From the NCBI GenBank assembly GCA_009773475.1, contig WSXV01000001.1:372001-436000 (forward strand): a DNA stretch of 64,000 nt, in the 5' to 3' direction. Positions 5,013 to 61,685 of the stretch are shown here, piece after piece. The stretch comes from Desulfobulbaceae bacterium (GTDB lineage: Bacteria > Desulfobacterota > Desulfobulbia > Desulfobulbales > Desulfocapsaceae). Positions within the stretch are counted from its first letter, which is position 1, and the number at the start of each line of letters is the position of its first letter. The notes under the pieces are model-generated. The model searched no databases. It saw only the letters and a program-made list of their open reading frames with translations, and was not told the origin of the DNA. Made by a program: the position numbers and the translations under genes.

Positions 5013-5925
5013 CCCCAGGACAAGCCCTGCATCCGCAATTTCTTAGCCCCCTTTTTCAAGCCTCCAGCTTTTTTGCAATATCCTTCCACCACTGAGGCTT
5101 CCAAGGACTTATGTGTCTTCCCCGCCCCGCCCCTTCCGAACAATTTGTCAGACAGCAGTCTCATCTGAGTATTGCTGTCTTCTTTGGATATCCCTATACA
5201 ATGGCGCGGTAAATTCCATTGAAGCCCATTGATTCATTGTTGTTGATGTCCCCCTCAAAGGCGTGAAAGGGAATGTCGCTGGTCCCCACATTGCACGTTG
5301 TGCAGTGTGGGCAGAGTTGTGTGCAAGGTGTCTTTGGAAAAAAATAAAAGAGAAAAAACAATTGTACGGGAGTGGTTGATATAGCGGCATAATCAAAAAC
5401 TAACTTAAGGAATATTGCGTTAATAAGAGATATTTTTTGCTTTATTGATTTATGTTGAGATCGTAAATTTTGAACAATTGTTGATAACTTGTGGAGCGGA
5501 TGAATAACCTGCGAAGATAACACGATAAAAAAGAGTCCTTTTGCTGATGCCCGAAATGCGGGGAGTTAGCGTTGGGAATGGGCTGAAAATCACGTTGGAC
5601 AGGCCTATGCAAAAAGAGGGGTGAGGGATGAAGAGTGTCGATAAAACTGGGATCAATCGACTTTGACGGAAATCCTGATTTCGGTTTTTATCGGGGAATG
5701 ATTTGATGAGGTGTTGATTTCAGTCAATGACAAAAAGGTCTAGTCAGTGCTGTAAAAAAGGTGCAAAATGGTCTTGAGGAAGATGTCGCTGTTGATTGTG
5801 GAGGGGTCTTTTTTTCTTTTTTAGATGTTTTCAAAAGGGCAGGTTGGCTGATTATGGGCATTAATTGTCCAAAACAGCTGTTCACTAGTGATCGATGTTG
5901 ACAGTAAAGAAAGGTGGTAAGAAGG
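5013..5925. other. Long AT-rich region upstream of dnaA, possible oriC
   Basis: A 0.9 kb non-coding stretch directly before dnaA. It becomes very AT-rich around 5320-5560 and 5790-5830, as replication origins do, and contains ATTGTTGATAACTTGTGGAG at 5477, which resembles a degenerate DnaA box. I could not find a clear cluster of TTATCCACA boxes, and dnaN is not next to dnaA, so an origin is only possible. A 12-bp hairpin lies at 5285-5311. It must at least contain the dnaA promoter. Confidence 0.3.
5285..5311. promoter_or_regulatory. Hairpin CCCACATTGCAC / GTGCAGTGTGGG
   Basis: Twelve-base arms with one T-G wobble and a GTT loop. It sits about 270 bases after comF and 610 before dnaA. No T-run follows on either side, so it is not a typical intrinsic terminator. 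It could be a structured RNA element or a protein site; no function can be assigned. Confidence 0.3.
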
Positions 5926-7260
5926 ATGGCTATGGTGTGGCAAAAAGTAAAAGAGAGCTTGCGTACAGCCCTGGTTGAGAATATTTACACCCTGTGGATT
6001 GAACCCCTGGCATGTGTCCAGTGTGACGAAGAAACGATCCGGCTTGCCTGCCCGGATCGTTTCTATCGGGCCCATCTGAGTCAGCATCATCTGGGGCTGA
6101 TTCAAGACTGTGTCAATGCCGTCGATGGGAATAAACGGCAGGTTGTTCTGTGTGAGGCAAGTCAGAAAGCTTTGCCTCCCTCGTCACCCACCGTTCAGTT
6201 GCGTTTACCCCATATTTCCGCCGGAGGCTCGCATGTCCGGTCCCTGCACCCCCGGTATACCTTTGATGAGTTCATGGAAGGGGAGAGCAACCTCCTCGCC
6301 CTGTCTGCCTGCAAATCCATGGCTGAAGGCAAGGATACCGTTGGTCCCTGTCTGTATATCAACAGTTCCACCGGCCTTGGCAAAAGTCATCTGACCCATG
6401 CGATTGCCCATCAGATCCTTGCCACCTCGCCTGCGACCCGCCTCTATTATCTCACTGCCCAGCAGTTCTCATCCGAGATGGTGCGTGAGATACAGGCTAA
6501 CAGCATGGATCGCTTCAAGCGGAAATATCATGATAATTGCGATATTCTCCTGGTGGAAGATGTCCACTCGCTGACCGGCAAAAAAAAGACCCAGGAAGAG
6601 TTGAATGAAATCCTTGATACCTTGATTAAGGGGGGGAAAAAAATAATCCTCACCGCCAATAGCGCCCCTCGGGAATTGAACGGCATTGACAATGAGTTTC
6701 GATCCCGTATGACGGCCGGACTGGTCACCTCCATCCAGGCACCGGATCTCCAGACCCGCGAGCGGATCGTGCTGAAAAAAGCCCAATTGATGGGAATTAC
6801 TCTGCACGAGGAATTTATCACCTATCTGGCACAACATATCAAGGGGGATGTTCGACGGATCGAGTCAGCTATCCACGCCATTCGGGCAAAATCTGCGCTT
6901 TTGGGAGGCAGGGTGGAGATGGCCCTGATTCGTGAGGTGGTGGAAGGGATTGTCGGAAGCCCGGATGATCTTTCGGCGTTGTCCATCAGTGAGTTTGTCG
7001 GTGCCCAGTTTCAGGTGAGCGTCCTCGATATGCAGTCGCGGACCCGTAAGAAAGGGATCGTCTTTCCCCGCCAGGTGGCCATGTATTTGAGCCGACTGCA
7101 TACCAAGGATTCCCTGGCCGACATCGGCAAGGTCTTTGGCCGCGATCATGCCACCGTCCTGCATGCGATCAAAGTGGTGAGTGATCGTATTCTGCGGGAT
7201 GCTTCTATCTCCTCCCAGGTTGAACTCTTGAATAAAAAAGTCAAACGGATAGAGATCTGA
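5926..7260 (+). CDS. dnaA: Chromosomal replication initiator DnaA (divergent)
   Basis: Binds origin DNA and ATP to open the duplex for replication. The ~444-residue product has the DnaA order: an N-terminal interaction domain (VWQKVKESLRT), an AAA+ domain with NSSTGLGKSHLTHAI as Walker A and ILLVEDVHSL as Walker B, and domain IV with the signature FGRDHATVLHAI. Two deviations are notable. The first Walker A glycine is serine (usual GGVGLGKT) and the Walker B second acid is glutamate where DID/IDDI is usual. The start may be ATG 5926 (AGGTGG eight bases upstream) or 5932 (AAGAAGG six bases upstream). dnaN and gyrB are absent, so this may be a second DnaA copy. Confidence 0.85.
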   Translation: MAMVWQKVKESLRTALVENIYTLWIEPLACVQCDEETIRLACPDRFYRAHLSQHHLGLIQDCVNAVDGNKRQVVLCEASQKALPPSSPTVQLRLPHISAGGSHVRSLHPRYTFDEFMEGESNLLALSACKSMAEGKDTVGPCLYINSSTGLGKSHLTHAIAHQILATSPATRLYYLTAQQFSSEMVREIQANSMDRFKRKYHDNCDILLVEDVHSLTGKKKTQEELNEILDTLIKGGKKIILTANSAPRELNGIDNEFRSRMTAGLVTSIQAPDLQTRERIVLKKAQLMGITLHEEFITYLAQHIKGDVRRIESAIHAIRAKSALLGGRVEMALIREVVEGIVGSPDDLSALSISEFVGAQFQVSVLDMQSRTRKKGIVFPRQVAMYLSRLHTKDSLADIGKVFGRDHATVLHAIKVVSDRILRDASISSQVELLNKKVKRIEI

Positions 7261-7287: not shown

Positions 7288-7585
7288 TGTCTCCCGATGA
7301 CTTCCAGGGAGAGGGAACTCGAGGCGTATTTTTTATGGTGGGAGCGGGTCATTTTAGTCATATGGTAAACCTCCGGGAACACCACCGTCTGCTTGATTTC
7401 TCATTTCTTTTCTGCTATGAAGACACGTATGTGTCCACGGGGATGGCAGCGGTTGCGTAGTTGATCCTTCTGCAGCCTTATTCGCTTTTCTCTCTGGGCC
7501 AAGGGTGTTTGTTGTTCCTGTTCTGCTCGTTGTTTTTCAGGCCGGGAATATGGTATGGGTCTTCACAGGAAGGGAGAATGGTGCA

Positions 7586-8722
7586 TTGCTGGAAATAGTC
7601 AATGTCTCGCGACACTTTGATACCTTTGTAGCCTTGGACAAGGTGTCTCTGCATATTGAAGCGGGCGAATTTTTTACCCTGCTTGGGCCATCCGGCTGTG
7701 GGAAAACCACCCTGCTCCGCCTGATTGCGGGATTTGACCAACCCGATGGCGGCGATATCCTCCTTGATGGCAAAAGTATTATTGCTGTCCCCCCTGAAGA
7801 CCGTCCCCTGCACACCATCTTTCAGAATTATGCCCTCTTTCCCCACATGACCGTGGCGGAGAATATTGCCTTTCCCCTGCGCATGGCGCGAGTTGCTAAA
7901 CAAGATATCCGCACCCGGGTGGCAGAGGCCCTCGAGGATGTGCGGCTGCCGGATAAGGGCAATCAATATCCGGATGCCTTGTCGGGCGGCCAGAAACAAC
8001 GAATTGCCATCGCCCGGGCCCTGGTCAACCGGCCCCGACTGCTGCTCCTGGATGAACCCCTGTCGGCGCTGGATGCCAAATTGCGTGAACAGATGCAGAT
8101 TGAGCTGATCGACCTGCAGAAAGATATTGGTATTACTTTTATTTACGTGACCCATGATCAAGGGGAGGCCCTGGCCTTGTCGCACCGAATTGCGGTGATG
8201 GATCACGGCAGGATTATTCAGGTGGATGAGCCTTCCCGGCTCTACGGATATCCCGGCAGCCGTTTTGTGGCCGATTTTATCGGCAAGTGTAATCTGCTGG
8301 ACGGCAAAGTCAGTGAGCAACAGGGCAGCCGGGTCACCGTTGAACTGGATGGCCTCGGTTCGGTCTATGTGAGCGGGCTGGAAACGCAGTTTGCTGTCGG
8401 CAGCCGGTGTGCCCTGACATTGCGTCCGGAAAAGATCCGAATCAGTCGCTCTTCAGCCATCCCTGGAGCGAGCGATACCCTTTCTTCGCCGGCCGATCCC
8501 TCCCCTTTGAGTTCCTTTGACGGGGAGTCCCATTTCCCCGGGTATGTCCATGATATGCTCTACCTTGGCGATGTGACGGTCTATAATGTGACCCTGGCCA
8601 ATGGCGTGCTGCTGGAAACCCTGCTGGCTAACTCGGCTTCCGGAAGGACCAATTTCTTTGAGATCGGTGATCAGGTTGAGGTTGCCTGGTCATGTGACGC
8701 CGGTCATCTGGTGTTGGACTGA
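7586..8722 (+). CDS. potA: Spermidine/putrescine ABC transporter, ATPase subunit PotA
   Basis: Hydrolyses ATP to drive polyamine import through PotB and PotC. The sequence has Walker A GPSGCGKTT, Q-loop FQNYALFPH, signature LSGGQKQR, Walker B LLLLDEPLSALD and H-loop THDQ, then a C-terminal OB/TOBE-like extension that includes LTLRPEKIRIS. The TTG at 7586 is preferred because AGGAAGGGAG lies eight bases upstream and it gives the usual MLEIVNVS beginning. An ATG at 7550 would add 12 residues with a poorer ribosome site. It is first in a potABCD operon with a five-base gap to potB. Confidence 0.9.
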   Translation: MLEIVNVSRHFDTFVALDKVSLHIEAGEFFTLLGPSGCGKTTLLRLIAGFDQPDGGDILLDGKSIIAVPPEDRPLHTIFQNYALFPHMTVAENIAFPLRMARVAKQDIRTRVAEALEDVRLPDKGNQYPDALSGGQKQRIAIARALVNRPRLLLLDEPLSALDAKLREQMQIELIDLQKDIGITFIYVTHDQGEALALSHRIAVMDHGRIIQVDEPSRLYGYPGSRFVADFIGKCNLLDGKVSEQQGSRVTVELDGLGSVYVSGLETQFAVGSRCALTLRPEKIRISRSSAIPGASDTLSSPADPSPLSSFDGESHFPGYVHDMLYLGDVTVYNVTLANGVLLETLLANSASGRTNFFEIGDQVEVAWSCDAGHLVLD

Positions 8723-8727
8723 TTGCC

Positions 8728-9636
8728 ATGCTGAAAACCGTGCAGGGCAAGGCCTGGTCCAAGTATCTGCTCTCCTTGCCACCCATGGCATATCTGCTGA
8801 TATTCTTTGCGGCGCCGACGCTGATCATGCTCTTTTCCTCGTTCCGCTATCCCGGCGAATACGGGGGGCTGGCGCCCTGGCTGGTGCAGGATGGCGGTCA
8901 GTGGACCTTTGATCTGACCCTGGAGAGCTGGCAGCGCCTCTTTGGCACCGATATTTATCTGCGTCTCTTTGTCAAATCCATCGGCTATGCGATCTGCACC
9001 ACCCTGTTCTGCATGGTCATGGCCTACCCTCTGGCCCTGATGATTGCCCGCAGCGGCCGCAAGTCTCGTGATCTGCTGCTGTTGCTGGTGATTCTGCCGT
9101 TCTGGAGTAATTTTCTGGTACGTATCTATGCCTGGATGATTATCTTCAGTCCGGTGGGCGCACTCACCCGCATCCTCAACGGGGTCCTTGATCTCTTCGG
9201 GGTAGGCCCGGTCACCCTGATGTACAGCCCGACGGCGATGATTGTCTGTCTGGTGTATGTGCATCTTCCCTTCATGGTTCTGCCCCTGTACGCCAATCTG
9301 GAAAAGCATGATCCGTATCTGCTCGATGCGGCCCAGGATCTGGGCGCCGGCAAATGGCGGCGGTTCTGGCTCATCACCTGGCCCCTGTCTCTGCCAGGGA
9401 TCACCGCCGGCTCGATTCTGGTTTTTATTCCGGTGCTGGGGATGTTTGCCATTCCCGATCTTCTCGGCGGCACCGATGGCATCATGATTGGCAACGTTAT
9501 TAAACAGCAGTTTATGGAGTCGCGGGACTGGCCTTTCGGCAGTGTTCTGTCCATGGTCCTGACCGTGGCGGCGGTGGCGGTGGTTTTGCTTGGCTCCCGA
9601 TTGAGCAGACAGCGTGCCGGGATGAGTGGCTCATGA
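8728..9636 (+). CDS. potB: Spermidine/putrescine ABC transporter permease PotB
   Basis: One of the two inner-membrane channel subunits of the polyamine importer. The 302-residue protein has six or so hydrophobic segments, starting with YLLIFFAAPTLIMLF, and the permease EAA-type loop LDAAQDLGAGKWRRFWLI that docks on PotA. Length and order fit the family. It follows potA by five bases and overlaps potC by four (ATGA), so the genes are translationally coupled. Confidence 0.93.
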   Translation: MLKTVQGKAWSKYLLSLPPMAYLLIFFAAPTLIMLFSSFRYPGEYGGLAPWLVQDGGQWTFDLTLESWQRLFGTDIYLRLFVKSIGYAICTTLFCMVMAYPLALMIARSGRKSRDLLLLLVILPFWSNFLVRIYAWMIIFSPVGALTRILNGVLDLFGVGPVTLMYSPTAMIVCLVYVHLPFMVLPLYANLEKHDPYLLDAAQDLGAGKWRRFWLITWPLSLPGITAGSILVFIPVLGMFAIPDLLGGTDGIMIGNVIKQQFMESRDWPFGSVLSMVLTVAAVAVVLLGSRLSRQRAGMSGS

Positions 9637-10409
9637 TGGCAAAGAAAAACCTGCTCCTTACGGTCAGCGCCGGCCTTGTCTATCTTTTTCTTTACCTGCC
9701 CCTGGTGATTGTGGTGGTCTTTTCCTTTAATGATTCCAAGTTGAACGCGGAATGGGTCGGTTTTACCTGGAAATGGTACGGCAAGCTCCTGTATAATCAG
9801 GAGATGCTGACGGCGGCCATGAACTCGTTGATCATCGCCTCGGTCAGCGCCGGGATCGCCACGATCCTTGGCACCCTCGCTGGGATAGCAATGCACCAGT
9901 ATCGTTTGCGTCTGCTGCAGATGCTGGTGCTGGCGCCCATTGCCATGCCTGAAATTCTGATGGGGGTGAGCCTGCTGGTACTTTTTATCATGGTCAATAT
10001 GACTCTGGGGCTGATTTCAATCATGCTTGCCCATATCACCTTCTGCATCGGCTTTGTCGCCCTGGCGGTGCAGGCCCGGATATCGAGCCTTGATCCGGCT
10101 CTGATCGAGGCGGCACGAGACCTGGGGGCCACGCCCTGGCAGTGTTTCCGTGAGGTCACCTTGCCTTTGCTGATGCCGGGGATCCTGGCCGGGGCGCTGA
10201 TGGCCTTTACCCTTTCCATTGATGATTTTGTGATTACCTTTTTCACGGCCGGAGTCGGCAGCTCAACCCTGCCGTTGCAGATTTACTCCATGGTCAAGAT
10301 TGCGGTGACCCCCGAGGTCAATGCGGTGTCAACCCTGTTGATGCTGGTGACCCTGGTGGTGATCACCGTGGCGTCGCGGTTGTCTCCTGCCATTTTTCGT
10401 GGCGAATAA
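9633..10409 (+). CDS. potC: Spermidine/putrescine ABC transporter permease PotC
   Basis: Second channel subunit, 258 residues with about six membrane segments. The EAA loop is IEAARDLGATPWQCFREV, followed by LPLLMPGILAG, and IDDFVITFFTAG is the usual PotC block before the last helix. The start overlaps the potB stop (ATGATG). The next gene, potD, begins 27 bases later behind an AAGAGGA site, completing the operon. Confidence 0.93.
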   Translation: MMAKKNLLLTVSAGLVYLFLYLPLVIVVVFSFNDSKLNAEWVGFTWKWYGKLLYNQEMLTAAMNSLIIASVSAGIATILGTLAGIAMHQYRLRLLQMLVLAPIAMPEILMGVSLLVLFIMVNMTLGLISIMLAHITFCIGFVALAVQARISSLDPALIEAARDLGATPWQCFREVTLPLLMPGILAGALMAFTLSIDDFVITFFTAGVGSSTLPLQIYSMVKIAVTPEVNAVSTLLMLVTLVVITVASRLSPAIFRGE

Positions 10410-10436
10410 GATTAATTTAAAGAAGAGGAAACTGAC

Positions 10437-11498
10437 ATGAAGAGGGTCTTGAGTGTATTGATGCTGTTATTTTTAGCTTCCCCTGTTTTTGCTGTGGAAG
10501 AGCTGCACCTGTTTAACTGGAATAATTACATGTCCGCCGAGGCGGTGGCCGGTTTTGAAAAGGAGTACGGTTGCAAGGTGGTTCAGGACTATTATTCCGG
10601 CACCGAAGAGATGATGGCCAAACTCCAGGCCGGCGCCAGCGGCTATGATCTGGTTATTCCCACCCAGAACGCGGTGCAGACCCTGATCCAGCAGGGTTTT
10701 CTGGAAAAACTGGACAAGTCCGCACTGCCTAATATCAAGAATGAAGATCCCGGCTTTATGAATCGCTCCTATGATCCCGGCAATGTCTATTCCCTGCCCT
10801 ATGCCTACACCACCACCCTCATCGGGTACAACGTGGAAAAGCTGAAGGCCCTGGGCGTTGAGGCAAAGAGCTGGGCTGTTATCTTTGATCCGGCCATACT
10901 CGCTAAGATCAAGGGCAAGGTGACGGTGATGGATGATGCCGATGAACTGTTCGGGGCAGCCCTTAAGTATCTCGGTTACTCAGTGAATGATACCGATGAG
11001 AAGCATCTGCGCGAGGCGCAAGCCGTTATTATGAAGGCCAAGCCCTATTGGGCCGCCTTTAACTCGTCAAGCTATATCAAGGAGTTGACCGTTGGCAATA
11101 TCTGGGTGGCGCATGGCTATTCCAGTGATATGGTGCAGGCGAGAAACGATGCCAGGGATGCTAAACGTGATTTTATGGTGAACTTCTTCCTGCCCAAGGA
11201 AGGCGCGGTGCTGGCCCTGGATAACATGGTTATCCCTAAGAAGGCGAAAAATAAAAAGCTGGCCCTCCAGTGCATCAATTTTTTGATGGATGGCAAGAAT
11301 GCCGCCGGTCTCAGTAACGATGTCGGGGCCGGCAATCCCAATGCTGCGGCCCTGCCCTTTATCAATCCGGAGCTCAAAGAACTCATTGCCATCTTTCCCG
11401 ATCAGAAGGTGCTTTCCACTCTGGAAACCCTGGAGTCCAGCAATACAAAGGTTCGCCGTCTGAAAAACAAGTTGTGGACCGAGATCAAGCTGAAATAG
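10437..11498 (+). CDS. potD: Polyamine-binding periplasmic protein PotD
   Basis: The solute receptor of the importer, 353 residues. It begins with a Sec signal peptide (MKRVLSVLMLLFLASPVFA), then the mature protein starts with EELHLFNWNNYMS, typical of PotD/PotF, and has the substrate-site block YDLVIPTQNAVQTLI. The C-terminal domain carries NIWVAHGYSSDMVQAR. Whether spermidine or putrescine is preferred cannot be read from the sequence. It is the last gene of potABCD and is followed by a strong terminator. Agmatinase, 2.8 kb downstream, makes putrescine. Confidence 0.93.
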   Translation: MKRVLSVLMLLFLASPVFAVEELHLFNWNNYMSAEAVAGFEKEYGCKVVQDYYSGTEEMMAKLQAGASGYDLVIPTQNAVQTLIQQGFLEKLDKSALPNIKNEDPGFMNRSYDPGNVYSLPYAYTTTLIGYNVEKLKALGVEAKSWAVIFDPAILAKIKGKVTVMDDADELFGAALKYLGYSVNDTDEKHLREAQAVIMKAKPYWAAFNSSSYIKELTVGNIWVAHGYSSDMVQARNDARDAKRDFMVNFFLPKEGAVLALDNMVIPKKAKNKKLALQCINFLMDGKNAAGLSNDVGAGNPNAAALPFINPELKELIAIFPDQKVLSTLETLESSNTKVRRLKNKLWTEIKLK

Positions 11499-38367: not shown

Positions 38368-39048
38368 ATGATGAGCGATGAAAATAAAACAATTCATGAT
38401 TTTGACTTTAATTTAATCTGCGAATATTTTTCAAGTTTAGACCAACAAGGGCCTGGGAGTCCAGAGGTAACAATTAAGGCTTTGAGCTTTATTGATAACT
38501 TGACTGCTGATTCGCGGATTGCTGATATTGGTTGCGGAACTGGTGGTCAGACAATGGTGTTAGCACATCATACGTTAGGACACATTACGGGCATTGACTT
38601 GTTTCCCACTTTTATAGACTTGTTTAACCTCAACGCTAAGAAATTGAATCTGCAAGATAGAGTTAGCGGTATCGTGGGCTCAATGGAGAACCTTCCATTT
38701 CATAATGAGGAATTGGATCTCATCTGGTCGGAAGGAGCAATCTATAATATCGGCTTTGAACGTGGCCTGAAAGAATGGCATAAATTCTTGAAAACAGGAG
38801 GCTACATTGCCGTTTCAGAGGCATCGTGGTTTACCGATAAACGACCTCTTGAAATCGACAAGTTTTGGCAGGACGCTTATCCCGAGATAGATACTGTTTC
38901 TAATAAAGTCGCACAAATGCAAGCTGCCGGATATCTTCCAATGGCTACTTTTATACTGCCTGAAAATTGTTGGACGGAGCATTTTTATACTCCACAAGTT
39001 TTGTCACAGCAGAATTTCCTGGAAAAATATAAAGGTAATAAGAGCTGA
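38368..39048 (+). CDS. Class I SAM-dependent methyltransferase, C-terminus lost to a frameshift
   Basis: A Rossmann-fold methyltransferase with SAM loop [12 protein letters not shown], the acidic residue in GIDLFPTF, and [20 protein letters not shown] in the substrate region. The frame ends at residue 226 (KGNKS). In a neighbouring frame the sequence goes on as [20 protein letters not shown] then FGYVFYIGKTIKL to a stop at 39148, which resembles the normal end of this family. One extra base near 39043 explains it. The gene is more AT-rich than its neighbours, suggesting transfer. Substrate unknown. Confidence 0.75.
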
Positions 39049-39224: not shown

Positions 39225-39671
39225 ATGAAAATTTTAACTGCACCAAGGATGGACCGATGTATTGGCTGCCATTCCTGTTCTCTGGCCTGCGCTCGCTTGG
39301 TTCATCATCGTCTTTCCTGGGATACCGCAGGGATTCGGATTCATTCTTCCGGTGGTTTGACCACTGGATTCATCGCCGTTCATTGCTTGGCCTGCGCTCC
39401 ACCTCCCTGTGCCGAAGCTTGTCCTACCGGCGCCCTTGTTCCGCGCAAGGGCGGAGGGGTGGTGGTCAAAAAAAAGCTGTGCAACCACTGCGGGTTGTGC
39501 GCAGCCGCCTGCCCGGTTGAGGCCATCTTTATCGATCAGGAAGGAGAACCTTTTGTCTGTTTGCACTGTGGCCTTTGCGTCCCTTCTTGTCCGCATGACT
39601 GCCTGGAACTGGCCGAGGTTAGCAGCCTCCGACTTCCATCCCCCAGCAATTCAACGGAGCCTGTATCATGA
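39225..39671 (+). CDS. Four-cluster ferredoxin-type electron carrier subunit
   Basis: A 148-residue iron-sulfur protein with four [4Fe-4S] ligand sets: CIGCHSCSLAC, CLACAPPPCAEAC, CNHCGLCAAAC and CLHCGLCVPSC (each followed by P or similar). The overall form is HycB/NrfC-like, as in electron subunits of molybdo- and tungsto-enzymes. It overlaps the following AOR gene by four bases (ATGA), so it is very probably the dedicated electron partner of that enzyme. No twin-arginine signal, so cytoplasmic. Confidence 0.92.
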   Translation: MKILTAPRMDRCIGCHSCSLACARLVHHRLSWDTAGIRIHSSGGLTTGFIAVHCLACAPPPCAEACPTGALVPRKGGGVVVKKKLCNHCGLCAAACPVEAIFIDQEGEPFVCLHCGLCVPSCPHDCLELAEVSSLRLPSPSNSTEPVS

Positions 39672-41407
39672 ACAGGGATCACTTTAACGTTCTAATTTTT
39701 GACCTGACCACCGGAAAAGGGGAGTATGCCCAGGTGGATGGCCGCGACCAAGTCGCTGGCGGCAGCGGCCTGGCAGCACTGCTGTTCACTCGATATGGGC
39801 AACCGAACGCCCCTTGGGATTTCCCCGGTCAGCCGCTCATTTTTGCCATAGGCCCGCTCACTGGGTATTTCCCTTTGATGAGCAAGACGATCTGTTCCTT
39901 TAAATCGCCCTACCATAATCAATACACCGAAAGCCACGGTGGCGGCCGTAGCGCGATGGCGCTGCGCCTGACCGGCCTCGACGCTCTGGTGTTGATTGGC
40001 CGATCACCAACGCCTTGTTTCTTCGAGGTGAGCAGCACTCACTTTCAGGCCAGAGATGGCGGGTTCCTCTGGGGTCAGGACGTGTTCGAAACCGGCAAGC
40101 TCCTGAGGCGCATGAGTAAAGGTTCCGGTCACCGTTCCATCCTGCGTATTGGCTCTGCGGGAGAGAACGGCGCAGCCATAGCGGGTATCAATGTTGACAC
40201 TCTTCGCCATTTTGGACGACTGGGAGGTGGTGCAGCAATGGGGGTGAAAAACCTCAAAGCCATTATCATCCATGGTGACGCCATCTTGCCGCTGCCTAAT
40301 GGGAACCACTATGCCAAGTTGTTTTCCAAGGTTCACAGTCAGGTCACGGCCAGCGGGATGATGAAGAAATACCACGATCTCGGCACTCCAGCTAATCTCA
40401 AGACACTCAACGATATTCAATCTCTGCCGTGGCGTAATCTTCAGGCGACGGCTGACGAGGCAGTTGACTGCATCTCTGGCGAGCGGTTCGCCGATGAAGC
40501 ACTGTTGCGCAACTCCGCCTGCTCTGGATGCCCGGTAGGTTGCATTCATGTGGGATTTGTCCGGGAAAAATTTATGGACAGCCACAGATACCTTTACCGG
40601 CAGGTCGCCTATGACTATGAAACGATCTTTTCGCTGGGAACCATGTTGGGAGTGACGGACAGGTCTGCGGTGCTCACCATCCTTGACCTGTTCGAAAAAG
40701 CCGGCATGGATGCCATGTCCGCCGGCGTGGCCCTTGCCTGGGCAACTGAAGCCACGGAAAAGGGCTTTATTTCTGCTCAAGAGACTTTGGTGCCACTGAC
40801 CTTCGGTGATTCCGCCGGTTACCGACAGGCAGCCGTCTCCTTTGGCGCCGGAGCTAACACCTTCTACCGACTTCTCGGCCAAGGGACCCTCAAGGCAGCC
40901 GAAGTATATGGTGGAAAAGATTTTGCCTGCGTACTTGGCCAGGAAATGGCTGGTTATGCCACCGGCGAGGTGTTTTTTGCAGCGCAAGCGCTCGGGTTCC
41001 GTCACTCACATCTGGATAGTGGCGCTTACTCGTACGATCAACAGCATGCAGACAAAGACGTAAATGCTGCGGTGGAGTTTCTTCTCCGAGATGAAGCATC
41101 TCGTGTCTTCATGACTTCCATGGTGGCCTGTCTTTTTGCTCGTAATGTCTATACCGATGCACTGCTGTCAGAGTGCCTGCAATCGCTCGGTTATGACAAA
41201 CTGGCTGACACCATACCTGAATGCGGCAGAGATATCCAAAAGATGCGATGGCAGACCCGTGTCGCCACTGGTTTCCAGCCCGATTCAATAACCATCCCTA
41301 AACGGTTCCGCGAAATCACCACTTGGAAAGGCCCTATTGATCCACAGTATCTCCAGTCCCTGCAAACCGACTATGGCCAGGCGATTCTTGCAATGGCCGG
41401 TGCTTGA
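39668..41407 (+). CDS. Aldehyde:ferredoxin oxidoreductase family, tungsten pterin enzyme
   Basis: Oxidises aldehydes to carboxylic acids with ferredoxin as acceptor, or the reverse, using a tungsten bis-pterin centre. Of 579 residues the N-terminal domain has GGSGLAALLFTRYG and SPYHNQYTESHGGGRSAMAL, and the cluster ligands CSGCPVGC at residues 285-292 (CX2CX3C) with a further cysteine in SMVACLFARN. This is the AOR fold with the cluster needed for electron exit. It is coupled to the four-cluster ferredoxin upstream. Substrate range cannot be told; family members also include acid reductases. Its metal need fits the MOT1/TunR locus 16 kb away. Confidence 0.92.
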   Translation: MNRDHFNVLIFDLTTGKGEYAQVDGRDQVAGGSGLAALLFTRYGQPNAPWDFPGQPLIFAIGPLTGYFPLMSKTICSFKSPYHNQYTESHGGGRSAMALRLTGLDALVLIGRSPTPCFFEVSSTHFQARDGGFLWGQDVFETGKLLRRMSKGSGHRSILRIGSAGENGAAIAGINVDTLRHFGRLGGGAAMGVKNLKAIIIHGDAILPLPNGNHYAKLFSKVHSQVTASGMMKKYHDLGTPANLKTLNDIQSLPWRNLQATADEAVDCISGERFADEALLRNSACSGCPVGCIHVGFVREKFMDSHRYLYRQVAYDYETIFSLGTMLGVTDRSAVLTILDLFEKAGMDAMSAGVALAWATEATEKGFISAQETLVPLTFGDSAGYRQAAVSFGAGANTFYRLLGQGTLKAAEVYGGKDFACVLGQEMAGYATGEVFFAAQALGFRHSHLDSGAYSYDQQHADKDVNAAVEFLLRDEASRVFMTSMVACLFARNVYTDALLSECLQSLGYDKLADTIPECGRDIQKMRWQTRVATGFQPDSITIPKRFREITTWKGPIDPQYLQSLQTDYGQAILAMAGA

Positions 41408-56789: not shown

Positions 56790-57899
56790 TCAGTCCACAT
56801 GCAGTATCACAGAAAAGCAGTTGAACAGTACCCAAACGCTGTCCCCTTCGCTAAGCTCAAGAATCCAACTGACCGCAGAGGAAACAACGGCACATATTTC
56901 AGTTGTATCCGAGATTCTGACAACGCATTCTGTATTGATCTTTCCCCTTGTTATCTTTGACAAAACCCCTTTAAATCTATTTTCCGCACTGCAGGCAGGC
57001 TCGGATTCACCGCCTTGGAGGATCACCCAGGGAGCCTTGACCTCCGCTGTAATCAGCCGACCTTGAGTTAAGCCAAGCCTCTCTAAACTATCATTGGTAA
57101 TCACGGTGGTGATTGCATGACCATCAATGGCTGTCAGGTTGACACGTGTCTGAATGTCGCCTCGTACAATGCTTTGGACTTTTGCGAAAAAAGAGTTTCG
57201 CGCACTGGTTTTGCGCAAAGATTCTTTTTCCATGAAGCGTTTTGCAAGGATTTGAATTTCTTCCTTAGAAAAAGAGACATAAGACGAAGCCTGATTGGGA
57301 GTCGAATGCCCTAAAATCATCTGAACCGCCGGTAATGGCATGTTGCTCTGGATCAATTCCACAGCTCGGGCCTTGCGGATTGTTTCCGGGCCGCCCAACT
57401 GTTTGGGAAAGCCGCAGGCCTGAGCACGTTCATAGAACTTTCGGCGCACAAAACCGGGATCTAAGTCCAGTAGAGCCTCTGAGTGCTCTCGAAATTGAGG
57501 GTCGCCTATCTTGTCCTGGATTTCGCGGGATAGTGCCGCCGAGATTTGAACTTCCCTCGGTTCTGTATTCGTTCCTCCTGCGATTCCACGAAAGATGACT
57601 AAATGGCGAACCCAATCGATATCTTCAAAGGGGTTCAAGGCCAACACTTCACTCAACTTGGCACCTGTGTATCGGATTAAAAGAAAAATAAGCAAAATAC
57701 GCTGCCGAGAAGAGCGCACATCGGATCGAGATGAGCGGTCCGCCCAATCTTGGAATGCTTGTTTTATCTGGTTTAGCTGTGTGGTGTCCAGACATTCGTC
57801 TCCATTTGCCAAGGAGACGAGATTTTTGTGGTTATTCTCTTCCAATAGTGAGGTCTTTGAATCCTGTTTGATTTTTTTGGTTTTTAACGGTGATTCCAT
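56790..57899 (-). CDS. TunR-like regulator: recombinase-fold DNA-binding domain plus two TOBE domains
   Basis: A 369-residue protein. Residues about 40-215 resemble a tyrosine recombinase catalytic domain: RYTGAKLSEVLAL, ETIRKARAVELIQS, LGHSTPNQASSYVSF. But catalytic residues are altered: the box-I arginine of TG-x-R is Lys81 and the HxxR histidine is Glu172, although His198 and Tyr207 remain. Residues 232-300 (SARNSFFAKVQSIVRGDI) and 302-368 (SAENRFKGVLSKITRGKI) are two molybdate/tungstate-binding Mop/TOBE modules. This architecture is that of TunR, a tungsten-responsive repressor of sulfate reducers. An IS3 copy lies 26 bases upstream of its start, with MOT1 beyond it. Confidence 0.83.
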   Translation of the reverse strand: MESPLKTKKIKQDSKTSLLEENNHKNLVSLANGDECLDTTQLNQIKQAFQDWADRSSRSDVRSSRQRILLIFLLIRYTGAKLSEVLALNPFEDIDWVRHLVIFRGIAGGTNTEPREVQISAALSREIQDKIGDPQFREHSEALLDLDPGFVRRKFYERAQACGFPKQLGGPETIRKARAVELIQSNMPLPAVQMILGHSTPNQASSYVSFSKEEIQILAKRFMEKESLRKTSARNSFFAKVQSIVRGDIQTRVNLTAIDGHAITTVITNDSLERLGLTQGRLITAEVKAPWVILQGGESEPACSAENRFKGVLSKITRGKINTECVVRISDTTEICAVVSSAVSWILELSEGDSVWVLFNCFSVILHVD

Positions 57900-57931
57900 A
57901 AGAATGTTTTGCCTCAGTCGGAAATGGACTT

Positions 57932-58860
57932 TCAGGCCGTTCGCTCTAAGTGTGTATGATGTTCTGCTGAGCGCATAATTTCAGGGATGGCTTTCTGTCG
58001 TTTTTGCTTTCTCAGTTCTCTTGCTTCCTCAAGCTTTTTATCTCGCTCTTTGAATATTTCCTGGTCTCTGCCGTTCAGCTTGTCTACTGGAGTGACATAG
58101 CCAATGGCGCTGTGCAGCCTGACGGTATTATAATGAACAATGTATTTTTCGACTATTCTTCGGACGTCGCCAAGGGAAAGTGGGACCCCGGGACGAATGC
58201 ATTCAGTTTTGATGGTTTTGTGAAATCGCTCCAGCTTCCCGTTGGATTGTGGATAATAAGGCGAAGTCCGCACATGAGTCACCCCTGAAATCCGGATGAA
58301 TTCCTTGAAATCTTTGGCAATGAACTGTGGCCCGTTGTCCGAAATAATCCTGGGCCTGGCTTCAGGGTATTTCTCCTTGGCCCGCTCAAGGATTATTTCT
58401 ACGTCTGTTTCGGTCATCTGCCCTCTGATCTCCCAATGGATTATAGAGCGACTGCATCCATCCAGAAAGCTGCACAGGTAATAGAAGGTTCCATGGATAT
58501 TGAGAGATACGAAATGTCCACATGCCATTGTTCATGGGGACGCAGCGGCTGGATGAACCCTGTTCCTTTAAGAGATAACTTTTTATTCCACTTCTGCAGC
58601 ATGCCAGCCTTTGTGAGAACACGCCAGGTGCTTGAGGGACTGACTGCCACGATATTCTGATCCAGCATCATAAAGGTCAGTCGACGGTATCCCTCAAGCG
58701 GGTTGTTCTCGGCAAACTTGACAATGGCTTCTTGTCCCCAGAGATCGAGCCAAAAATCACGGGGGATAGAAGCGTTATGTTCGTTCACTTTACCGTACCG
58801 TTTGATCCAGGTATAAAACTTGCTCTTTGAGACGGACAGCCAAGAGATAAACCGTTTCAA
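57932..58860 (-). pseudogene. IS3-type transposase OrfB, frameshifted
   Basis: The first part reads MKRFISWLSVSKSKFYTWIK up to HEQWHVDISYLSI, with the first DDE aspartate, then leaves the frame. After a shift near 58495 it continues as NIHGTFYYLCSFLDGCSRS, IISDNGPQFIAKDF (second aspartate) and YYPQSNGKLERFHKTIKTEC (glutamate), to 57932. So the complete DDE set is present in two frames. The start before MKRFISW could lie further upstream, up to about 58930. Not active as it stands unless shifted by the ribosome. Confidence 0.85.
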
Positions 58861-58940
58861 CGGAATCTCTGTTTTGACGCTCCACCCTTTGACATAATCG
58901 ATGACGGCATCACGAATATCATGGGGAACCCAGCTGCCGG

Positions 58941-59249
58941 TTAGAGCTCACCAAGTTCATTTTTTAGCTTGAGGTGTTCTTCCAACAGCTCAGAAAGAAC
59001 TTCGTGCTTTCTGGTCAACTTGGCTTCAAGCTGCTGGATCTTCAGATCCTCTATACGTTTTTGAGGACGGTTGCCACGGACAAATGCAGCTGCTCCGTTT
59101 TCAAAAAACTGCTTCTGCCAGTTATGGAAGATCCTGGGCTGAAGATGATACTCGTCACATAGGTCCGATACCGCTATATGCTCGACCAGGTGACGCCGTA
59201 AAATGGAAACTTTTTCTTCTGAAGAATAATTGTAACGTTTCTTTCGCAT
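58941..59249 (-). CDS. IS3-type transposase OrfA
   Basis: A 102-residue helix-turn-helix protein: RYNYSSEEKVSILRRHLVEH, then LCDEYHLQPRIFHNWQKQFF, and a C-terminal leucine zipper (LEEHLKLKNEL). It binds the element ends. It lies at the right end of the IS. OrfB begins in the -1 frame but separated by stops, so a fused OrfAB would need a different shift site. Confidence 0.88.
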   Translation of the reverse strand: MRKKRYNYSSEEKVSILRRHLVEHIAVSDLCDEYHLQPRIFHNWQKQFFENGAAAFVRGNRPQKRIEDLKIQQLEAKLTRKHEVLSELLEEHLKLKNELGEL

Positions 59250-59517
59250 AGACTTTCCTCCGTTTGTGATTGTTTATCACAAACGAACCAAAAGTCCAAT
59301 TCACGCTGAACCAAAACAAGAAGTCTCACTGGCAGTCGTTTTTTTGGGGGGCAACTTCGCAAAGGTTCATCAACACTTGTAAAGTGAAAGATAAGAGTCC
59401 TTGACTCCTGTCAATGATGGCAGATTTTACGATGAACAGAGATCTATTTTCGTGATAGTAAATCAGGCTCTTTTTTGTCTGGCTATTTCTTGACTGTGCG
59501 AGGTCTTGCTACATATC

Positions 59518-59712
59518 TCAAAGATATTGTGAAACTTCGCATATTGCTCTAATTCGCATTTGCAGCGCGTTTACCCGCGAGCAAAAAACTGCCGGTTTTT
59601 CTTTACAGGTTACACAGCTATGCAATTGTTCAAGTATCCTTTTTTTTTCTTCACGATTATGGCATTGCTGGAGTTGTTCAAGAATCATGTCGATATCTTT
59701 TTCTGAGCACAT
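59518..59712 (-). CDS. Small cysteine-containing protein
   Basis: A 64-residue protein, MCSEKDIDMILEQLQQCHNR..., rich in helix and with cysteines in CVTCKEKPAVFC and AICEVS. ATG 59712 follows GGGAG by ten bases; upstream codons would give an unlikely N-terminus. It is 160 bases after the MOT1 gene on the same strand. No family recognised; could be a metal-binding accessory of the transporter, but this is a guess. Confidence 0.5.
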   Translation of the reverse strand: MCSEKDIDMILEQLQQCHNREEKKRILEQLHSCVTCKEKPAVFCSRVNALQMRIRAICEVSQYL

Positions 59713-59872
59713 GACAAACTTTCTCCCTAATTTTATGAAGTAAAATATCCAATCGAAAAAATGATCAGTTCCAACCGGCTTGAGGGCACAATGCGATGTT
59801 CTCAAGGGGAATCAACATAGTTCCAGGCCCTGGCAGATATCTGCCCAAACACCTATCCCTCTTCCGCCAAGG

Positions 59873-61138
59873 TTAAATCTTAATTTTCATTTTTCGGATA
59901 AAAACATCCGTCGCGATACCTACGCCGAATGCCCACCCCATATTGGGTACGGTCAGTGCGATACCAGCTATTAACAGTGCAATAAAGTATTCCTCATTTG
60001 TCTTCAGGCTTCTTAGCAGCGGGCAAAGTTCTAGCCCGGCAAAGACCAGAAGGACACCGAGCACTGACTGGGGAATGATTGCCAGCAACGATAATCCAAA
60101 CTCACCCAGGATCAGGGCTATGACAACAAAAAAAATGCCAATCATAATGGGTGCACCACCAGTTCTGGCACCAAACCGAAAATGTGCAGCCAACCCACCC
60201 GTTCCATGACACATGGGCACTGCTCCCAATAATCCCGCCGGAAGATTCATTATCCCCATGGATAGAGCAAATTTCCCCGCCTTGGCCTTGGGGAGTTCAG
60301 TGTTGCCCCTAAAGAGGCTGGTACAGGTGTCCGCAGTGCCGACACAGGCATTACCGATGGTTAAAGGAATTTGCGGAATGATCAACATTATTGCGGCAGT
60401 CCAGAAATCCCCCATGGTGGGTTTGATAAGATGCATTTCTGTCGGTCCCAGGGAGAGTGTGAGCATGGAAAAACCGCCCAGGGCAACTCCAGAAACAATA
60501 CCGACGGCAAGGGCAACTAGGGCTGCCGGAAATTTCTTGTTGTCAAGAAGGAGCAGAACCAGGCCAAAGACCACGATACCTAGAATCAAATTAACCGGAT
60601 ATCCTGCAAATTTTCCCTGCGCTCCCGACATAAACAGATCTTTATTGATAATCAGTTCGATGCCTTTCTTGAGAAAGATAAGTCCCAGTGTCAACTGAAT
60701 GCCCCGGACAACGGCCTGGGAAAAAAGTTTGGCAAGTTGATCGATCATTCCAGATAGGGAAAACACCAGAAGAAAGACACTAAAAATAATTCCTGCAGCA
60801 CCGATAACTGATTCAGTGATAATCGTGGGATATGCAATGGCGATGGCGCCTACCGCTTTCAGGGGTTGTACAGGTATTGGTAAGCGAAAATAATATCCCG
60901 AGACCAAGTAAAAGAGTCCAAAGGTTAAGAAAACCGAAGAAGGGCTCAACTTATTGATGAAAATCATGGCCAAGACTATGGGCAGCATGGTGCCTAGATC
61001 GCCAAAAGCACCTGCCAGTTCAACCCGGTCGAACCGCAGGCGTCGGGAGTCCGGAGCGACATTTTGGGTTTCAGGTGGCGTGGAGTTCCCCACCCCCCAC
61101 GAGATATTTTTTTCATTACCGGGTTTCTTGTTCATCAC
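59873..61138 (-). CDS. MOT1-type molybdate (sulfate-like) transporter
   Basis: A 421-residue membrane protein of the MOT1 branch of the SulP-related group, with about ten helices. Family blocks: ELAGAFGDLGTMLPIV near residue 40, YYFRLPIPVQPLKAVGAIAI near 85, and PMCHGTGGLAAHFRFGARTG near 315. Members import molybdate, possibly also tungstate. The N-terminal 30 residues are polar and not conserved. With the TunR-like regulator 2 kb away, a metal-controlled uptake locus is likely. Start ATG 61138 or 61135; no clear ribosome site was resolved. Confidence 0.87.
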   Translation of the reverse strand: MMNKKPGNEKNISWGVGNSTPPETQNVAPDSRRLRFDRVELAGAFGDLGTMLPIVLAMIFINKLSPSSVFLTFGLFYLVSGYYFRLPIPVQPLKAVGAIAIAYPTIITESVIGAAGIIFSVFLLVFSLSGMIDQLAKLFSQAVVRGIQLTLGLIFLKKGIELIINKDLFMSGAQGKFAGYPVNLILGIVVFGLVLLLLDNKKFPAALVALAVGIVSGVALGGFSMLTLSLGPTEMHLIKPTMGDFWTAAIMLIIPQIPLTIGNACVGTADTCTSLFRGNTELPKAKAGKFALSMGIMNLPAGLLGAVPMCHGTGGLAAHFRFGARTGGAPIMIGIFFVVIALILGEFGLSLLAIIPQSVLGVLLVFAGLELCPLLRSLKTNEEYFIALLIAGIALTVPNMGWAFGVGIATDVFIRKMKIKI

Positions 61139-61685
61139 TGCGACCTCATTGTTCCTGAAAGAAGTTGCCGCCCGTAGTTATAGGGGGGGGATTTGTGACA
61201 CGATTTTGAAAATATTCGTAACAGTAGTTGTATTAAATAATCTCAACACAATGTTGTCAAGTTATTTGAATGTTTTTGCAATTTACAAAATAGGTCTGCC
61301 GTGGATAAAATGATTAATATTTTTCTTATGATATAATCATAGGTACTTACGTAGAAATCAGGGATGATGTAAAAGACGGACTTCCGCCCCCAAACATTAA
61401 CACAGCATTATGCGAAGGCATGAGAGGAGTGCCACTGGCGGTTCTCTCTTGCCTAGGACTTGCAATTTCGAGCGAATAAGCGTCGTAATGCTAAGAAAAA
61501 CTAGGGGCGTGACGTCGCCGGATATCACGGACGAGGAGTAAAATGGTGGGCGGGTCTGTTGGTGGGTTGAGCGGAAGTCCTGACGCGTTTGCGGAGTCGG
61601 TGGGAGCAGAGAGCCGATGGGCTGGAGAGATAAAACACTTCATTATCGTTTAAAAAAATCTTGATTGTTGAACAACTACACTTAT
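61139..61685. other. Intergenic upstream of MOT1 gene
   Basis: About 550 bases, AT-rich near 61170-61340. TATGATATAATCATA at 61327-61341 is a perfect 15-bp palindrome, a candidate operator about 190 bases before the transporter start. No gene was found from here to the UbiB gene end. Confidence 0.45.
61327..61341. promoter_or_regulatory. Candidate operator palindrome TATGATATAATCATA
   Basis: Perfect dyad TATGAT-ATA-ATCATA upstream of the MOT1 gene. The spacing and AT-rich nature fit a repressor site, but the same sequence could be part of a promoter -10 box. No matching copy was confirmed before the TunR-like gene, whose upstream region has been replaced by the IS. Confidence 0.35.

Follow-up and report, generated by a model that had tools for sequence, protein, structure and literature searches.

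The tunR-MOT1 locus of the window

The DNA analysed here (the window) is a 64-kb stretch of the genome of a Desulfobulbaceae bacterium, which comprises 3.03 Mb in 26 contigs and is referred to as G000. The window contains tunR, a gene for a TunR-like regulator, and a gene for a MOT1-type transporter. An earlier note on this DNA had described a recombinase/TOBE protein and a MOT1 transporter about 2 kb apart on one strand; both open reading frames (ORFs) were recovered and their domains matched. Most of the 2 kb separating them was an IS3-family element, which was absent from the earlier note. A predicted TunR operator was found in the MOT1 leader, and from the sequence data we consider it likely that the TunR-family regulator controls MOT1 through this one operator. 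The features of the locus were as follows:

56790-57899, minus strand: tunR, 369 aa, with a degenerate tyrosine-recombinase domain (residues 39-212) and two TOBE/Mop domains (about residues 231-366)
57901-57904 and 59319-59322: left and right copies of AGAA, an apparent 4-bp target duplication
57905-59318, minus strand: IS3-family element, with IS3-type transposase matches, terminal inverted repeats and flanking AGAA
57905-57941 and 59282-59318: terminal inverted repeats of the element, 37 nt each, 73% complementary
58441-58860 and 57932-58528, minus strand: orfB of the element, in two frames
58941-59249, minus strand: orfA of the element
59319-59482: former tunR upstream region, which aligns to the tunR-TSUP intergenic region of genome G005; the operator remnant is about one half-site
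59518-59712, minus strand: small ORF of 64 aa (MCSEKDIDMIL...) downstream of MOT1, no Pfam match
59873-61138, minus strand: MOT1-type transporter (PF16983, two stretches), 421 aa
61199-61220: predicted TunR operator, core palindrome TACGAATATTTTCAAAATCGTG on the minus strand, 17.9 bits
61232-61237, minus strand: proposed -10 of MOT1, TTTAAT, 17 bp from the -35, read by eye, letters verified
61255-61260, minus strand: proposed -35 of MOT1, TTGACA, read by eye, letters verified

With tunR and MOT1 both on the minus strand, the divergent tunR-MOT1 layout of G009, G020, G029, and G045 was rejected for the window. The 421-aa protein matched MFS_MOT1 in two stretches in Pfam (5.7e-50), with 168.8 bits vs. 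a curated cut-off of 30.

The tunR product had the TunR-like architecture proposed in the earlier note: an XerC/D-like recombinase domain and, after it, two ModE-like TOBE domains. Pfam placed Phage_integrase at residues 39-212 (1.9e-8) and TOBE in two stretches (3.4e-23). In PDB, the TOBE domains of ModE were the best match (1.4e-15), in an alignment that spanned both TOBE domains in the second half of the product, and an XerC-like recombinase matched weakly (0.001). No N-terminal core-binding domain was listed by Pfam for the 369-aa product, and its recombinase fold is predicted from profile matches.

Active tyrosine recombinases carry the catalytic set R-H-R-H/W-Y. This set was incomplete in the window protein, which had K81 at the box-I position and E172 at the HxxR His position, the two replacements that the earlier note had read; R175, H198, and Tyr 207 were present. 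These positions were also compared among 81 sequences, comprising the window protein and those of 80 named loci (two having a stop in the span); the named loci were the best 80 of 244 found, and the tallies cover the nearer part of the family. Box I was K in 73 and R in 8, whereas the HxxR His position was E in 67, D in 13, N in one, and His in none. The second Arg was found in all 81, the His in 75 and the Tyr in 65, and the nucleophile was therefore not strictly kept. We assume that this degenerate active site is a defining feature of TunR.

The oxyanion-binding motifs of the TOBE domains, on which the earlier note had relied, were kept as far as motifs tell. Positions S232, A233, N235, T268, S271, K288, A289, and P290 were invariant in the 81 sequences; which of them contact the ligand we presume from ModE. 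R234 was Arg in 77 and Cys in four (L118, L138, L145, and L150). A Cys at this place in the TSARN motif of the first TOBE domain was also observed in four of 16 members of a smaller TunR set (L034, L037, L038, and L042), and the exchange possibly changes oxyanion specificity. G005 held a second tunR-like gene (L046:9881-10465; G005:C71) with two TOBE domains only and no recombinase half, 86% to the window TunR over residues 216-369. It is either a truncated copy or a stand-alone Mop protein.

The family operator and its transporter partners

In relatives, tunR was often divergent from a TSUP gene of the TauE/SafE family, and the upstream regions shared a palindrome directly after a -10-like box, discernible by eye. 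Ten sites from relatives served as seeds for a palindromic matrix, which was refined on the regions upstream of transporters in the 80 named loci (74 regions). The matrix consensus was CACGAAWAT..ATWTTCGTG (in fuller form, with the box, TATAnTGACACGAAWAT..ATWTTCGTGTCA), and when the matrix was extended, the symmetry spanned about 32 bp, immediately preceded by TATAnT. Scores above 14 bits were obtained for 65 of the 74 training regions, a count that is partly circular because the matrix was trained on the regions it counts. In 370 resampled control regions, the 99% quantile was 10.7 bits and the maximum 20.4 bits. A TTGACA-like hexamer (at least five of six positions) was present upstream of 59 of the 65 operators, at 29-32 nt from the operator start in 44 of these 59. 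Next to the -10-like box and downstream of the -35-like hexamer, the predicted operator is placed as a repressor site would be.

The site at 61199-61220 (17.9 bits) was the only one above chance in the window. The next best score was 10.8 bits, at two places, and the maxima of 20 random 64-kb windows ranged from 4.2 to 13.8 bits. The operator lies 61 bp before the MOT1 start and downstream of TTGACA-17-TTTAAT, the proposed MOT1 promoter, which a generic promoter scan did not list. Genome-wide, G000 held 11 forward and 11 reverse matches to the operator pattern with up to two mismatches (4 and 5 in the reversed control); the MOT1 operator was one of three places with one mismatch, and it had the best matrix score among the loci taken from the pattern matches. 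Neither this site nor the MOT1 site of G019 (29.9 bits) was a seed or a training region, while the G004 site has the same sequence as the G009 site, which was used in training. MOT1 was the only clear TunR target found in G000. A TSUP homologue of this genome (C6:183535-184470) was rejected as a target, its 3.9-kb locus being without an operator (best score -1.8 bits). The family-wide operator in the MOT1 leader agreed, as a sequence-based prediction, with the earlier claim that the regulator controls the transporter.

TunR was searched for in 58 genomes (E up to 1e-10). Nineteen genomes matched, G003 and G008 over the TOBE part only, and the remaining 17 carry TunR (the match in G051 spans residues 121-369 only). 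A MOT1 at least 65% identical to the window copy was found in eight of the 58 genomes, all eight having TunR (Fisher p 1.3e-5, not corrected for relatedness). Six of eight other close MOT1 copies held the operator (14.7-32.9 bits), and none of seven distant MOT1 genes did (maximum 4.0 bits; six were from genomes without a TunR match). In G019, MOT1 and tunR are on separate contigs, and the place before MOT1 was the sole genome-wide pattern match at up to two mismatches. G005, G036, G004, and G009 had a single perfect match each, before TSUP or MOT1, and G005 and G036 held further matches with two mismatches. Given these few genome-wide matches, TunR appears to act on one or few targets.

TunR, operator and partner were also observed together in records named Nitrospirae, Nitrospiraceae, Nitrospira, or Thermodesulfovibrionales (L105, L106, L107, L109, L113, L117, and L147), and in one Chloroflexi metagenome-assembled genome (L111). 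The module thus extends beyond records named as sulfate-reducing deltaproteobacteria.

The partner behind the operator varied among 91 distinct TunR loci (window included, no locus entered twice). It was TSUP only in 57 loci, MOT1 only in 15 (with the window), both in four and ChrA, of the chromate-transporter family (PF02417), in three, which gave an operator-transporter pair in 79 loci; 12 loci had none. L128 was labelled MOT1 plus TSUP by hand, MOT1 being the second gene behind its operator. The 12 loci counted as having none include L084 and L151, where a transporter is present without a scored site, and L150 (G004) and L042 (G019), where MOT1 with an operator is on another contig. In a separate 95-locus table with three duplicated loci (L033/L104, L036/L131, and L038/L150), the operator accompanied 64 of 67 TSUP, 18 of 21 MOT1 and three of 12 ChrA-like transporters within 6 kb of tunR.

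On a quick TunR tree, the MOT1 label changed 11 times, and at least seven changes were forced by strongly supported branches. In 499 of 500 shuffles the label was less clustered than on this tree, and the three ChrA cases were separate. The nearest relatives of the window TunR were L030, which has TSUP, and L072, where two operators separate divergently oriented genes for MOT1 (80% identical) and TSUP. MOT1 was divergent from a TSUP-tunR pair in L137 and L139, and one operator was followed by TSUP and MOT1 in L128. The MOT1 identity was confirmed by Pfam in L123, L128, and L142.

Proposed regulation of MOT1 and rival explanations

In the proposed mechanism, the recombinase-derived domain of TunR, very probably without catalysis, would grip the palindrome around 61199-61220 as a dimer, and TunR bound at the start of MOT1 transcription would block RNA polymerase. 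Operator conservation and position make this core of the proposal highly probable, and TunR very probably represses MOT1. The paired TOBE domains would bind molybdate or tungstate and alter the affinity for DNA, which the conserved motifs render probable with only a little less confidence. Excess oxyanion would then release the repressor, and MOT1 would be made at high molybdate or tungstate as a relief route. For this sign and direction the balance is close to even. We slightly favoured relief over uptake because the partner families TauE/TSUP and ChrA are best known as exporters (the Pfam name of the TSUP partner is "Sulfite exporter TauE/SafE") and because ModB-like permease matches, some of them weak, occurred in 16 of the 17 TunR genomes. 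The ModB-like permease of G000 belongs to a set that follows a ModE-like gene and also includes a ModA-type binding protein and an ATPase with TOBE, and in L033 a ModABC-like set adjoins tunR-TSUP. Activation of modABC in the TunR system is reportedly weakened by tungstate, which fits release by tungstate. The name "Mo/W uptake locus" given in the earlier note goes further than the sequence shows, as the same operator also precedes TauE/TSUP or ChrA and G000 carries ModE-like and ModABC-like genes.

Several observations weigh against this account. The window operator was outscored by 62 of the 65 training sites, had T at one end where all 65 have C, and started 40 nt after the -35 start (mode 32, range 26-44). 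The second-best site found in G000 (15.4 bits; C1:298209-298232, L152) lies before an ORF that had a weak LCIB_C_CA match only and no clear link to molybdenum. Two of the eight other close MOT1 copies (that of G036 and the second copy of G045) were without a site, the genome-wide pattern missed known sites of G020 and G045, and the 12 of 91 loci mentioned above had no operator-transporter pair nearby.

The history of the locus also bears on the role of TunR. The IS3-family element begins 5 bp upstream of the tunR ATG. With the flanks of the element joined, the tunR upstream region could be aligned to its G005 counterpart, the intergenic region between tunR and TSUP, as far as the ribosome-binding site of TSUP. 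No TSUP gene follows this region in the window, and the operator search in 59300-59560 gave a best matrix score of -6.8 bits. This suggested that an ancestral tunR-TSUP pair probably lost TSUP, that MOT1 with its own operator is probably the target now, and that the IS3 element split tunR from its upstream region; we infer this order of events.

The insertion may alternatively have silenced TunR, so that MOT1 is constitutive and its operator a relic. This is unlikely. The closeness of the element to the ATG, the AGAA on both sides and the decay of the former tunR-TSUP operator would agree with it, but tunR retains an intact ORF, which shares 83% identity with its counterpart in G005. Moreover, orfB of the element runs in the same direction as tunR and ends 32 nt before its ATG, with GAGG 12 nt before the ATG, which makes read-through expression plausible; tunR is probably now transcribed from or through the element. 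Far less credible is a working tyrosine recombinase, with the palindrome as its site and TOBE domains that gate recombination. R175, H198, and Tyr 207 remain in the window TunR and the palindrome resembles a two-arm Xer site, but a box-I Lys in 73 of 81 sequences, a His of HxxR in none, the loss of the Tyr in 16 of 81 and the position of the operator sites at promoters argue against it, and a working integrase was rejected on the active-site residues.

A more serious rival, although one we hold to be clearly below an even chance, keeps the operator and reverses the sign: oxyanion-bound TunR would be the active repressor, as ModE is, and MOT1 would be a molybdate/tungstate importer that is shut off when the cell is sated. 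The plant MOT1 is a molybdate importer and ModE acts as a repressor in its loaded state, which is the opposite sign to relief. This version is consistent with the name of the MOT1 family and with the match of the TunR TOBE domains to those of ModE. In addition, MOT1-like proteins in several genomes of sulfate-reducing microorganisms are described as most likely molybdate transporters in a passage of PMC5840216. However, such an importer would be partly redundant with the ModB-like permease of 16 of the 17 TunR genomes, and its interchangeable partners are the exporter families named above. Tungstate is also said to weaken the action of TunR. Relief stays slightly ahead in our view.

The earlier note had further suggested that TunR controls an AOR operon. 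The operon was found, with AOR at 39668-41407 and a 4Fe-4S protein before it (39225-41407 in all), and its family matches point to AOR, which is likely a tungsten enzyme. Control by TunR of this region (38.4-41.4 kb) is very improbable. The nearest site, at 38377-38398, scored 10.8 bits, a value exceeded in five of the 20 random 64-kb windows, and it lies inside a methyltransferase ORF beginning at 38368. AOR control was rejected at this chance-level score, no site there being above chance. A passage of PMC10102598 also reports that the tungstate uptake genes of D. vulgaris are regulated by tupR/DVU3193, and the TupR class is a better candidate than TunR for AOR control. Elsewhere in G000 (C21:150175-159491; L047 and L165), a ModE-like gene and then a ModABC-like set were observed, all near a second AOR. 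This AOR (C21:158439) and the ModE-like gene lie about 8 kb apart on the same strand.

Other genes of the window were noted as well. ORFs of the 59518-59712 type, starting with MC(S/T)xKDI..IL, had weak relatives at L030:11283, L097:4885, L037:11667, and L046:9794, which sit downstream of a transporter or near a TunR fragment in a few loci. A general family of small ORFs behind transporters was rejected, the biggest group found having four members. The window also holds dnaA at 5914-7260, followed by an ABC transporter set at 7505-11498 (an ATPase with TOBE_2, two permeases and a solute-binding protein), and this region is possibly near the replication origin.

Known systems and meaning of the module

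TunR was reportedly described by Kazakov and colleagues in 2013 (J Bacteriol 195:4466) as a protein of sulfate reducers with an XerC/D-like DNA-binding domain and ModE-like TOBE domains. It is said to bind a palindrome of about 30 bp and to repress TSUP transporters. The family analysed here has the same domain design, a long palindrome (about 32 bp) and TSUP as the sole partner in 57 of 91 loci. The window differs from TunR as so described in its target, a tandem MOT1 in place of a divergent TSUP, and in the IS3-family element that parts the regulator from its upstream region. Relatives are also present in records named Nitrospirae and Chloroflexi.

ModE is a molybdate-responsive repressor of modABC. 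The window TunR resembles it in two TOBE domains with TSARN and KAP motifs (PDB alignment), whereas ModE binds DNA by an HTH_1-type domain in place of which TunR has Phage_integrase; G000 carries a separate ModE-like protein of the HTH_1 type (L047). The window transporter shares two MFS_MOT1 stretches (PF16983) with MOT1 and differs in being under a predicted TunR operator. TupR (Rajeev and colleagues, 2019), also called TaoR, presumably belongs to a regulator family different from TunR. Like TunR, TupR (DVU3193) regulates tungstate-related genes in a sulfate reducer, according to a passage of PMC10102598. MOT1 was reported in several genomes of sulfate-reducing microorganisms in PMC5840216, the main text of which has no occurrence of "tungst".

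The TunR design and the presence of MOT1 in sulfate reducers are thus already known. Transporter-family swapping behind one operator, and MOT1 or ChrA as TunR targets, were not found in the open-licence literature, a scope that does not include the 2013 work on TunR, and our claim that these points are new is a weak one. More broadly, TauE/TSUP, MOT1, and ChrA may have been repeatedly swapped behind a constant TunR and operator, and all may expel excess molybdate or tungstate from sulfate reducers and their relatives, which would make up a portable "oxyanion relief" module. This broader proposal is tentative, and we hold it at somewhat less than an even chance.

According to passages of PMC9723548 and PMC10102598, sulfate reducers are selectively inhibited by molybdate, tungstate and similar oxyanions. 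The module bears on how sulfate reducers handle an excess of these oxyanions. A regulator-operator unit that repeatedly recruits one of three transporter families provides three candidate Mo/W transporters open to testing, and a means of linking bacterial proteins of the MOT1, TSUP, and ChrA families to their substrates. If the proposal is true, it would also be a case of a recombinase that has become a metal-sensing repressor, seen in records from several phyla.

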